Below, piece by piece: positions 8,303 to 12,344 of a DNA stretch of 33,967 nt. Position numbers and translations under genes: made by a program. The notes below the pieces were generated by a model, which was not told the DNA's origin, made no database searches, and saw only the letters and a program-made list of their open reading frames with translations. The stretch is from a virus. Positions within the stretch are counted from its first letter, which is position 1. The number at the start of each line of letters is the position of its first letter. The stretch lies in the IMG/VR virus record IMGVR_UViG_3300030118_004810, positions 1 through 33,967 of that record. The stretch is one strand, 5' to 3'.

Positions 8303-8525
8303 CAGTATAAGTAGTATTATTGAGCATAAGGCTAAAGCCAGCAGACTTATCAAAATATATAAGGTCTTCTGATTTAATATTCTGGACATCTGTTCCTGGT
8401 TGTATTACTTTTGCTTTCTTATATCTAAACTCATCTACATCAGAAGCTGTTAATAATAGACCTGAATCCGTTTTAACCTCTTCTTCTATAGGTTGTATTA
8501 TAACATTTTTACCTATTGCTATCAT
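8268..8525 (-). CDS. groES: Co-chaperonin GroES
   Basis: The 85-residue protein shows the GroES layout. It has an N-terminal strand (MIAIGKNVIIQPIEEE) and a mobile loop (VKTDSGLLLTASDVDEF) whose G-L-L-L-T corresponds to the GroEL-binding G-I-V-L-T. A-K-V-I-Q-P-G-T, D-L-I-Y-F-D-K and the terminal strand YTVIAERDIVVVL follow. It is somewhat shorter than the usual 95-100 residues, the deficit lying in the central strands. It directly follows groEL, sharing one base, so the two form one operon with the order groEL-groES, reversed from most bacteria. It caps the chaperonin ring. Confidence 0.92.
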   Translation of the reverse strand: MIAIGKNVIIQPIEEEVKTDSGLLLTASDVDEFRYKKAKVIQPGTDVQNIKSEDLIYFDKSAGFSLMLNNTTYTVIAERDIVVVL

Positions 8526-10141
8526 TATCCTCTTTTATTAGTTACTATAGCGTTTGTACTGAGTATTGTTGTAGAAACACTAACTGCATTTATTAATGCG
8601 TTCTTAGTTACTTTAAGTGGGTCTATAACACCCATCTTAAACATATCTCCAAACTTTTCATTTTTTAAATCGTACCCAATATTGTGAGGTTTATCAAATA
8701 TATGATTTATTATTGAATCATATTCTTTACCTCCATTATCTAATATTTGTTTAAGTGGAGCTAATAATGCAGACCTTAAAATTAATAAAGCTACTTCCAT
8801 GTTATCGTCTTTACTTTTATATTTGTTTAGCATTATTCCTGCACGCAATAAAGACACTCCTCCTCCGGCTACAATTCCTTCTTCAAGTGCTGACCTGACA
8901 GCACAGACCGAGTCATCAACTCGGTCAAATTTTTCTTTTTGTTCTACATCGCTATATCCTCCAACATATATACAGCCTATTGATCCCGCCAAACTCGCTA
9001 TTCTTTCATTAATAAACTTCTTGTCTACGTTTTTTTCTACCGACTCTCTGGCTTCTACTAATTCATCTATTCTTTTTTGTAATTCATCTGATACTGTATT
9101 TTCTTTTAAAATTATTGTATTGTCTCTTGATGCAATAATTTTATCAGCATGACCTAAGTGTTCAGGTCTAATCAAACTTAAATCATCACCAGTCTTCTCA
9201 CTAAAGTATTTTGCTCCGACAGCCAAAGCTATGTCTTGCATTAACTCCTGAGTCTTATACCCAAATGATGGTGGGGCTATATTACAAAACTTTAGTCCAT
9301 TACGAACTACGTTAGCTGCAAGTGTATTTATTACATTCACAGAACATGGTGCAATAATCAATAGTTTTTCTCCGTTGTTAATTATTGGTTTTAATACATT
9401 TTCTATTTGTAATATATTATTTATCTCTCCATCACAAACTAATATCTTTACATCTTCAAGTATACACTCATCCTTTTTGTGGTCATTAATAAATAAATGA
9501 GTTGAATAACCTCTATCAACTTTTATTCCATTTGTAACCTCAGCATATGTTTCTGATGACTTAGACCTTTCTACTGTAACAATACCGTTGATACCAACCT
9601 TGTCATAAGCATCAGCTATGATTCCACCAATCTCGCTGTCATTGTTTGCAGATATGCAGGCTACATCTAACAACCTACCCTTAGTTACTTTTCTTGAATT
9701 TTTTTCTAATGATGATATTATGTCTTTACAAACTTTATTTATATTTCTTATAATCTCAGTTGTATTGTGTTCTGGTTTTATAAACTCTTGTCCTGCTTTT
9801 ACAATAGCTTCAGTTAATACAATAGCAGTAGTTGTCCCATCACCTGCTGTGTTAGCAGTTCTGTCTGCTGCTTCTTTCATCATTTGAACAGCGAGATTCT
9901 CAATTGGATCATCCAACATAATAGCTCGGGCTACAGTTACTCCGTCTTTTGTTATTGTCATTCCTGAAGTATGATTAGATGATTCTAACAATACCGTTTT
10001 ACCTAATGGCCCTAATGTGCTCTTTACTGTTTTTGCAATGGCTGTAATTCCTGAGATTAACTTAGACCTACCCTCATCATCAAAGCTCAAAGACTTTGCA
10101 GTATAGGACGTAGTAGGATTAATGAATTGTGGGTTTGACAT
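8525..10141 (-). CDS. groEL: Chaperonin GroEL
   Basis: The 538-residue protein aligns over its full length with group I chaperonins. Nucleotide-site motifs are present: T42-L-G-P, K65-D-G-V and G100-D-G-T-T-T. The aspartate equivalent to E. coli D398 appears in RVDDSVCAVR (about D410), followed by EEGIVAGGGVSLLRA. The ATPase therefore looks intact. There is a 12-residue N-terminal extension, and the C-terminus lacks the Gly-Gly-Met tail of bacterial GroEL. The apical domain is clearly diverged. It should form a folding chamber with the adjacent GroES, presumably for virion or replication proteins. A TATATTTG box lies 25 bases upstream. A phage-encoded GroEL/GroES pair is uncommon. Confidence 0.97.
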   Translation of the reverse strand: MSNPQFINPTTSYTAKSLSFDDEGRSKLISGITAIAKTVKSTLGPLGKTVLLESSNHTSGMTITKDGVTVARAIMLDDPIENLAVQMMKEAADRTANTAGDGTTTAIVLTEAIVKAGQEFIKPEHNTTEIIRNINKVCKDIISSLEKNSRKVTKGRLLDVACISANNDSEIGGIIADAYDKVGINGIVTVERSKSSETYAEVTNGIKVDRGYSTHLFINDHKKDECILEDVKILVCDGEINNILQIENVLKPIINNGEKLLIIAPCSVNVINTLAANVVRNGLKFCNIAPPSFGYKTQELMQDIALAVGAKYFSEKTGDDLSLIRPEHLGHADKIIASRDNTIILKENTVSDELQKRIDELVEARESVEKNVDKKFINERIASLAGSIGCIYVGGYSDVEQKEKFDRVDDSVCAVRSALEEGIVAGGGVSLLRAGIMLNKYKSKDDNMEVALLILRSALLAPLKQILDNGGKEYDSIINHIFDKPHNIGYDLKNEKFGDMFKMGVIDPLKVTKNALINAVSVSTTILSTNAIVTNKRG

Positions 10142-10746: not shown

Positions 10747-11090
10747 ATAAAAATATATTAGATAATTAGGGGTTGAGGGTACTACCCCGTTATACGCACT
10801 GCGACTGCGTTAGAAAAACGACATTTTTTGTTGGGGGGGGTTGCTGATTTTGTTTTTTTCTGCTGATTGTTTTGGCTTTTGCTTTTTGGTCTGTTCGTTT
10901 GGCTTTTGGTGTTGCTGGTGTCCGTTGCTGGTGGTGTTGTTGCTGTCCCTTTGTCCCTTTCTCCTGACGCTTTGCCGACCTTCCCCCAGTTCACGCAGTT
11001 GGTTGCTTACCTTCCCTCTGCGAGTAGCCACAGACCGAACACGAACGAACGCAAACAAAACCGACCGACAAACACCAGTATAAAATATTG
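10747..11090. other. Compositionally anomalous G/T-rich noncoding island
   Basis: This stretch is far more G+C-rich than the rest. It is strongly strand-biased: 10828-10945 is almost only G and T on the plus strand, including eight consecutive G at 10833-10840. By contrast 11030-11080 is almost only A and C. Short repeats (TTGCTG, GGCTTTTG, ACTGCG, CGAAC) pervade it. Frames on both strands exist but none has an ATG start with protein-like composition. It lies in the divergent control region beside DnaA-box-like repeats. It may be part of an origin, a packaging site, a structured RNA, or foreign/assembly-derived DNA. Confidence 0.6.
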
Positions 11091-11102: not shown

Positions 11103-11180
11103 TTATTAACAATGATATATAAATTTATCAACAATTAAAGTTTTTTATTAATTATGTTTGTTTTATTCATTTTTTTTATT
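11103..11180. other. Candidate replication origin: DnaA-box-like repeats plus AT tract
   Basis: TTATTAACAAT (11103-11113) and TTATCAACAAT (11125-11135) are direct repeats differing at one base and starting 22 bp apart, two helical turns. Each resembles the DnaA box TTATCCACA, the second with one mismatch. They are followed by a T/A-only-like tract to 11180 that could melt easily. The phage encodes a stand-alone DnaA domain IV protein at 17128-17427 that could bind here. The origin call is inferred. Confidence 0.45.
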
Positions 11181-11187
11181 ATCTTTG
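11157..11187 (+). promoter_or_regulatory. Main rightward (early) promoter
   Basis: TTTG at 11157-11160, 19 bases, then TATCTTTG at 11180-11187. This is the complete Bacteroidota -33/-7 pair with ideal spacing. It lies upstream of the first gene of the long rightward block. Confidence 0.8.
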
Positions 11188-11234: not shown

Positions 11235-11642
11235 ATGACAAAAAGAATCCTATCACTTGCAGAAGCTGATGCAAAACAAACTATAAAAGAGTCAAGCTTC
11301 TGGACAGAAAAAGATTTAAATAAATTAACTCAATGGAACTCAGAGGAATTAACACGAATTAAAAACGCACTTTTGCGAGGTCGTTTTTATTGTGGTGTTG
11401 ATAGTGTCAGTAAATCAGGAATGAGCAGAAAAATCCGATTAGCTTATATTTATAAAAACAAATTAAGAAAAATAACAGACCCATATATTTTAAAACTTGC
11501 AGGATGTGATAAGAATGGAAGAATTTCAGGATGTGGGATGGATATGCTATTTAAAGCTCAATACAACTTATTTCAAAATTTGCATAGAAGCTACAAAGAG
11601 GCACACTATCAAAAACGAATGCCCTCTTATAATAATTTATAG
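11235..11642 (+). CDS. Conserved phage hypothetical protein, GCGMDM type
   Basis: The 135-residue protein is the first gene of the rightward operon. It contains FYCGVDSVSKSGMSRKIRLA, then a beta region, and later GRISGCGMDMLFKAQYNLF with a basic C-terminus. The S-x-S-G-M-S-R...G-x-x-x-G-C-G-M-D-M pattern recurs in uncharacterised phage and mobile-element proteins. The leader is ACAAACAAATGA with no Shine-Dalgarno. The stop codon is immediately followed by a hammerhead ribozyme, so its mRNA should be cut right after the coding region. Function unknown. Confidence 0.75.
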   Translation: MTKRILSLAEADAKQTIKESSFWTEKDLNKLTQWNSEELTRIKNALLRGRFYCGVDSVSKSGMSRKIRLAYIYKNKLRKITDPYILKLAGCDKNGRISGCGMDMLFKAQYNLFQNLHRSYKEAHYQKRMPSYNNL

Positions 11643-11699
11643 ACATTCTGAAGAGCCTTCAGGAGGCGAAACAAGAGCAAATTTGCTCTTGTCAATGTC
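11642..11699 (+). ncRNA. Hammerhead ribozyme, type I topology
   Basis: All core positions fit the hammerhead. Stem I is GACATT (11642-11647) with AATGTC (11694-11699). The core strand CTGAAGA (11648-11654) matches CUGANGA. Stem II is GCC (11655-11657) with GGC (11665-11667) and a 7-base loop, its first pair being the preferred G-C. GAAA (11668-11671) supplies G12 A13 A14 A15.1. Stem III is CAAGAGC (11672-11678) with GCTCTTG (11685-11691) and loop AAATTT. U16.1 at 11692 pairs with A15.1, and C17 at 11693 is the cleavage site. Cleavage after 11693 would separate the first gene from the second. A small hairpin GGGA-ATAG-TCCC follows (11700-11711). The ends are in stem I, hence type I. Position 7 is A rather than U, which is tolerated. 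Confidence 0.92.
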
Positions 11700-11730
11700 G
11701 GGAATAGTCCCTTAATTAACATACTAACAA

Positions 11731-12012
11731 ATGAAAAATTTAAAATTAAATCAGAATACTAACTCTTTGTTGTACGAACAACAACAGAAAGAATTGCAAT
11801 TAAATCTTTGGAAAACGATACCAATGCAAACAATGCTAACTATTTGGGAAGAGGTAGGAATAATGCCTAATGAACAATGCAAAATAGTTATAGCAACTGC
11901 TCCTGAATGGGTGGAACTTGTCCTTAAAAATGATTATTCAGTTTTTGATGTAGTACACGACTTTACAAACTTAGCGAAGGAAGAACCATTTTTTGTCCCT
12001 CGTATTCTCTAA
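11731..12012 (+). CDS. Small hypothetical protein
   Basis: The 93-residue protein begins MKNLKLNQNTNSLLYEQQQK. It has an amphipathic segment (LWKTIPMQTMLTIWEEVGIM) and ends in PFFVPRIL. The start lies 37 bases after the predicted ribozyme cut, in an A-rich leader (CTAACAAATGA). No family is recognised. It is followed by a hairpin with a short U tract. Confidence 0.6.
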   Translation: MKNLKLNQNTNSLLYEQQQKELQLNLWKTIPMQTMLTIWEEVGIMPNEQCKIVIATAPEWVELVLKNDYSVFDVVHDFTNLAKEEPFFVPRIL

Positions 12013-12101: not shown

Positions 12102-12344
12102 ATGAAACTTAAAAATTTTTATATAAAAAAATATCCTTCTGATGATTTAGGAGGAGAAATAAATAGCAAAGCTACATTTATAGGTTTATTAGATAGATTA
12201 CATAAAAGAAAAGATATATACAACTATTTAGAAGTGAGAGATAGTGTAATCAGAGAGAGATTATTTCAAGAACTTTCTGATTTAGTAGAAGAAGATTACA
12301 GTTATATTTATAACATTTGGACTTCTGGATTTAAGTCCTGTTAA
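12102..12344 (+). CDS. Small hypothetical protein
   Basis: The 80-residue protein begins MKLKNFYIKKYPSDDLGGEI and then has a helical charged region (RDSVIRERLFQELSDLVEED). The PSDxLGxxIxxxxTFxxLxxxLxxxxDxYxxLxVxDSxxRERxF pattern looks like a small conserved early phage protein, but I cannot name it. The start is in an AAACAAATGA leader like those of the two preceding genes. Confidence 0.6.
   Translation: MKLKNFYIKKYPSDDLGGEINSKATFIGLLDRLHKRKDIYNYLEVRDSVIRERLFQELSDLVEEDYSYIYNIWTSGFKSC

Follow-up and report, generated by a model that had tools for sequence, protein, structure and literature searches.

A type I hammerhead ribozyme at the stop codon of the first early gene of a Bacteroidota-type phage, and its relatives between viral genes

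Hammerhead ribozymes situated between phage genes have been described before. Hundreds of bacterial hammerheads, with clusters flanking prophage genes, are documented by Perreault et al. 2011 (PMC3088659); three tandem arrays were cleaved in vitro, an Agrobacterium prophage array was cleaved in E. coli, and the authors proposed that long phage transcripts are cut into mRNAs of single-gene or operon length. Phage hammerheads of types I-III are covered in a 2020 review (PMC7761336). An engineered counterpart, RiboJ, raised transcript abundance in E. coli about twofold (PMC6206723).

We analyzed a stretch of viral DNA of 33,967 nucleotides (IMG/VR record IMGVR_UViG_3300030118_004810), here called the window, which almost certainly contains a hammerhead ribozyme at 11642-11699 (Table 1). 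This ribozyme belongs to the already known intercistronic hammerheads of phages and prophages: like those of Perreault et al. (PMC3088659), it lies between two genes of a phage operon, on the coding strand. The clusters described there often hold several copies, whereas the window has a single one, a related locus (L007) two and other phages up to at least seven per locus. In further contrast to that account, the window copy belongs to an early operon, the phage lineage being Bacteroidota-type and unclassified; its first base lies in a stop codon, and a covarying hairpin comes after it. The preliminary description had considered such a ribozyme notable; the Bacteroidota-type early operon is indeed supported, but intercistronic phage and prophage hammerheads, both singly and clustered, were described in 2011 (PMC3088659) and are common in viral contigs.

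Table 1. Features at the junction of gene 1 and gene 2, in window coordinates.
Feature	Position	Strand	Basis or remark
Promoter-like site TTTG-N19-TATCTTTG, Bacteroidota-type	11157..11187	+	47 bp before gene 1; pattern match
Gene 1, 135 aa, weak phrog_12365	11235..11642	+	First gene of the rightward early block
Type I hammerhead ribozyme	11642..11699	+	Direct reading, shuffles, covariance model
Stem I, 5' strand, GACATT	11642..11647	+	Direct reading; pairs covary among relatives
Competing hairpin, 11646-11653 with 11657-11664, would sequester the core	11646..11664	+	Folding energies
Core C3-A9, CTGAAGA	11648..11654	+	Direct reading
Stem II and loop II (GCCTTCAGGAGGC)	11655..11667	+	Direct reading
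Core G12 A13 A14 and A15.1	11668..11671	+	Direct reading
Stem III, 9 bp, loop AATT, last base U16.1	11671..11692	+	Direct reading, folding
Predicted cleavage site, 3' of C17 (11693)	11693..11694	+	Hammerhead family knowledge applied to the sequence
Stem I, 3' strand, AATGTC, at the start of the leader left by predicted cleavage	11694..11699	+	Direct reading
Gene 2 leader after predicted cleavage, 37 nt, predicted 5'-OH	11694..11730	+	Reading and inference
Post-cleavage hairpin GGGA(ATAG)TCCC	11700..11711	+	Compensatory changes in same-junction relatives
Gene 2, 93 aa	11731..12012	+	ATG at 11731

All positions of the type I core are present (C3 U4 G5 A6 N7 G8 A9, G12 A13 A14, A15.1-U16.1, H17), with the core GAA at 11668-11670 and A15.1 (11671) paired with U16.1 (11692). 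Three helices surround this core, of which stem I is the open one. Stem I comprises 6 bp, stem II (GCC..GGC) 3 G/C pairs, or 5 if a U-A and a U-G pair are added, and stem III 9 bp including A15.1-U16.1 (11671-11679/11684-11692). The G of the gene 1 TAG stop (11640-11642) doubles as the first base of stem I. Read against the sequence, the preliminary description holds: it had claimed a complete core (CUGANGA with N=A, GAAA, U16.1/A15.1 and C17), in which every position matches; stems I, II and III of 6, 3 and at least 7 bp, which we read as 6, 3-5 and 9 bp; an overlap with the last base of the stop codon; and a cut at 11693/11694 leaving a 37-base leader, for which the coordinates of the predicted site agree. 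The cut site and end groups presumably follow established hammerhead chemistry. Loop II of the window copy is UCAGG, while in the wider phage set it is often UNANU-like; no contact partner for it was identified in stem I.

Searches of viral contigs with gene 1 and gene 2 recovered relatives of the same gene junction. One of them (L003/L013, contig IMGVR_UViG_3300030406_004056) has a ribozyme identical to that of the window, and two (L004 and L009) share its stems I and III with an altered stem II. In L014, L016 and L017, a hammerhead precedes the same gene 2 and the upstream gene is different; here stem I is GTTGTA/TACAAC (GACATT/AATGTC in the window) and stem III ATACTGG/CCAGTAT. The core is kept in the junction relatives with stems I and III almost wholly exchanged. 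Gene 2 DNA is 95% identical between L004 and L014 (271/285), and the adjoining ribozyme stems differ. The preliminary description had named covarying stems in homologous phages as a check on an intergenic hammerhead, and the constant core together with the compensatory replacement of stems I and III upholds both its identity and its type.

Hammerheads also occur one or two genes further downstream: a single copy in L006, which has an additional base ahead of stem II, and a pair in L007. All three lie after a stop codon and before the following ATG. The L007 pair (L007:5602-5858) flanks a small lipoprotein-like gene (MKKSILVAVVLTFLLSSC), so that cutting would free its message as a short mRNA. 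When 32 related records were searched in full with a covariance model, no additional hammerheads emerged; 8 of the 32 carry one or two, so gain or loss of the element takes place on a short evolutionary timescale. It also appears dispensable, since most gene 1 relatives, compared as fragments, are without it.

Covariation extends to the wider set. We aligned 86 copies (82 distinct) by fitting them to the structural model, which makes the alignment lean towards structure, and set aside MAFFT alignments, in which stem III was misplaced. Each of the 12 modelled pairs is preserved across the 82 distinct hammerheads from phages, and 10 of the 12 change on both sides; pairing was found in 100% of 981 cells, compared with 26-35% when the partners were slid.

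The earlier assignment of the window to a Bacteroidota-type phage is supported by its primase, by relatives in Flavobacteriia phages and by the TTTG-N19-TATCTTTG site. The primase has a BT4734-like domain and shares 68% identity with its counterpart in podovirus ctfjg026 (MW202828.1), a phage of similar layout (GroEL, divergent early genes, primase); further primase relatives occur in Flavobacterium, Polaribacter, Cellulophaga and other Bacteroidota phages. A GroEL/Cpn60 gene (PF00118, E 1.8e-59) occupies 8525-10141 on the minus strand, divergent from the early operon, and gene 1 is the first rightward gene beyond it. The stretch from the GroEL side towards gene 1 (10780-11080) is of odd composition, G/T-rich then C-rich, with no obvious plus-strand gene. 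The early transcript likely starts at the promoter-like site before gene 1; this pattern occurs 5 times over the window against 2.4 expected, so its count by itself lacks significance. The pattern has no match in the interval separating the two genes, and transcription of gene 2 therefore probably passes through the ribozyme. Among deposited phages, neither a DNA match to the gene 1-gene 2 region nor a tblastn match to gene 1 was found.

Based on this arrangement, we propose that RNA polymerase would initiate upstream of gene 1 and continue through the ribozyme on a polycistronic early transcript, and that the hammerhead would act in cis, the RNA cutting itself after C17. The gene 1 mRNA would then end in the stem II and stem III hairpins with a 2',3'-cyclic phosphate, and the gene 2 mRNA would have a 5'-OH and, as its leader, a constant 37 nt carrying the small hairpin. 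The likely effect would be to uncouple the two messages, each end being defined and relatively nuclease-resistant, as with engineered RiboJ. Cleavage in vivo, effects on stability and a benefit to the phage are inferred; we assign a probability of roughly 0.78 to the reading that the ribozyme cleaves this transcript during infection, dividing it into a gene 1 message and a gene 2 message.

The folding energies count against this reading and also bear on an alternative that we regard as unlikely, namely that the ribozyme is real, cuts weakly here and serves mainly as a structured spacer or 3'-end hairpin, or as a switch between folds. The best fold of the region (-28.7 kcal/mol) is favored in isolation by 1.3 kcal/mol over the best hammerhead-enforced fold (-27.4 kcal/mol) and contains the competing hairpin, which is able to form first during transcription and, on this modelling, may slow cleavage in the window allele; in both folds, no structure is stronger than the 9-bp hairpin of stem III. 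Against this alternative, L004, L014 and L017 fold directly into the hammerhead without a competing fold, and a spacer would not need the core to be kept where the stems are replaced. Fast hammerhead cleavage also needs tertiary contacts between loop II and stem I, which nearest-neighbour energy models omit.

Similar ribozymes are common in viral contigs, numbering well over 100. Over all loci we counted at least 183 distinct hammerheads, most of them from a pattern scan of viral contigs: at least 158 of type I (4 with an extra base), at least 21 of type III and at least 4 of type II. None of the 41 multi-copy loci among the matches listed has hammerheads on both strands. The same-strand arrays reach seven copies in L187 (the most per locus among the matches listed), six in L092 and five each in L087 and L165, and in these four a hammerhead stands before most genes. 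In L187 a leader of about 38 nt, almost the same each time, comes after every copy; the L092 copies precede genes with AGGAGG-like leaders. Tandem copies separate successive genes in L007, L187 and L092. Type II hammerheads at L186:686-744 and L191:2489-2551 share arrays with types I and III, so all three topologies can be mixed in one operon. The hammerhead regions of L187, L092, L087, L165 and L077 gave no DNA match in deposited phages.

Another alternative is that the hammerheads release small circular or linear RNAs, or move as elements, and do not process mRNA. Hammerheads do yield circular RNAs in retrozymes and viroid-like RNAs, and the two copies around one small gene in L007 would suit this reading, but we consider it very improbable: the window has one hammerhead, which is unable to excise a monomer, and the arrays separate ordinary genes at varied spacings. 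Perreault et al. (PMC3088659) reported that spliced or circular products could not be detected.

Chance was assessed with a structural descriptor and with covariance models. The descriptor has a single match in the 34-kb window, with 20 pairs; 200 dinucleotide shuffles, searched on both strands, gave 2 matches in total, neither of which reached 17 pairs. In an unfiltered search with covariance model R2, which was built from 86 sequences with the window ribozyme among them, the window ribozyme scored 48.9 bits (E 4e-13) and the next-best place in the window 10.9 bits, making 11642-11699 the sole hammerhead in the 34 kb. Where CTGANGA occurs elsewhere in the window (e.g. at 12139), stems are absent. 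Two weak matches of model R1, in G006 and G014, were dismissed because they lie in coding-looking sequence. That the site is a chance look-alike, or a terminator or protein-binding palindrome at stem III, is hardly credible: the genome is AT-rich and stem III forms a strong inverted repeat, but no shuffle equalled the match and the 48.9-bit score likewise excludes a look-alike, no U-tract follows the repeat and no terminator is called there, and the core and stem I are conserved in relatives whose stem III differs.

The Rfam covariance-model search that had been proposed earlier found no match at the gathering threshold anywhere in the window. At relaxed cut-offs, the best Rfam match was RAGATH-1-hammerhead (RF03152), with 30.6 bits (E 0.0018) against a gathering score of 56.3. 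This family has the same type I core and stem order; however, of its conserved 5' hairpin the window has only weak A/U pairing in the last codons of gene 1, and the hairpin of the window lineage lies 3' of stem I. Hammerhead_1 (RF00163) and Hammerhead_HH9 (RF02275), which represent the same ribozyme class as the window copy, gave no reported window match even at a relaxed E-value; in arrays of related phages, some copies give sub-threshold matches to these two families. No hammerhead in L004, L006, L007, L014, L087, L092, L165 or L187 reached an Rfam gathering threshold. As Rfam misses these hammerhead-rich loci, absence from Rfam annotation is not evidence of absence.

The placement of the ribozymes relative to genes is regular. 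We took the 152 pattern-found type I copies among the matches listed and considered upstream open reading frames of at least 30 codons. A stop codon falls within -10 to +6 of stem I in 124 of these 152 copies, compared with 604 of 7600 random same-strand places (8%), and coding extends right into the ribozyme. In 28 of the 152 the stop is a TAG sharing its G with stem I (TA/G), in 22 the register is TAA/G, and in others the stop lies inside stem I (12 at -4 and 25 at -6); the UGA of the catalytic core is itself the stop in 26. Because the core UGA is invariant, these registers partly reflect the letters of the ribozyme itself. Downstream, an ATG-started reading frame begins 8-70 nt past stem I in 127 of the 152 listed copies (median 23 nt), with a Shine-Dalgarno-like string in 90 of those 127. 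Given this recurrent placement, the stop-codon overlap in the window is an instance of a common design.

The window lineage also carries the hairpin 3' of the cut. Its four-pair stem changes in a compensatory way among the same-junction relatives, to GGCA/TGCC, GGAA/TTCC and GGTA/TACC, with the loop ATAG or ATAA, and comparable hairpins occur in L087 and L097. We rejected the 3' hairpin as a general trait of phage hammerheads, as the 26 nt after stem I show only a mild excess over shuffled sequences (32 versus 16.5 at a score of at least 10; 13 versus 9 at a score of at least 11); it is a trait of the window lineage and a few others. After cleavage the hairpin would stand at or near the 5' end, in a RiboJ-like layout; alternatively, its loop might dock on loop II. 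As in RiboJ (PMC6206723), a hammerhead is followed by a hairpin upstream of the ribosome-binding region, and cleavage would fix the downstream 5' end. RiboJ, by contrast, is synthetic, derives from sTRSV, has a 23-nt hairpin and is placed after a promoter, while the window element is natural and lies between operon genes. The resemblance is an analogy; plausibly, the ends of the cleavage products, together with the hairpin, would make the messages more stable or shield gene 2 as an insulator. The stop-codon registers and the covarying hairpin are possibly new: the registers are not discussed in the accessible text of Perreault et al. (PMC3088659), and we did not find quantified stop placement, a lineage-specific 3' hairpin or failure at Rfam thresholds stated in the literature compared, in the parts available.

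A cultured phage carries related elements. Flavobacterium phage vB_FspP_elemoE_10-3D (MT497078.1), which we compared with the window by primase alone (41% identity over 38%), has an unannotated type III hammerhead before early genes (L197:18914-18968, minus strand) and, between early genes, a type I motif that starts on TAG (L197:17096-17153, minus strand). In the latter, two pairs of stem II are mismatched, and this copy may be decayed.

Tentatively, and with some doubt, we suggest that phages possess a natural, modular 'cut-and-insulate' cassette, consisting of a stop codon in stem I or the core, the ribozyme, a fixed leader (in some cases with a hairpin) and a start codon. Several such cassettes along one operon would yield monocistronic mRNAs with protected ends, cleavage possibly being gated by ribosomes terminating at the stop. 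Since copies are missed at Rfam gathering thresholds, routine phage annotation would overlook a common layer of RNA processing. The regular placement of these ribozymes, on the coding strand, at a stop codon, about 23 nt before a start and in arrays, makes the mRNA-processing idea directly testable, also in a cultured Flavobacterium phage.
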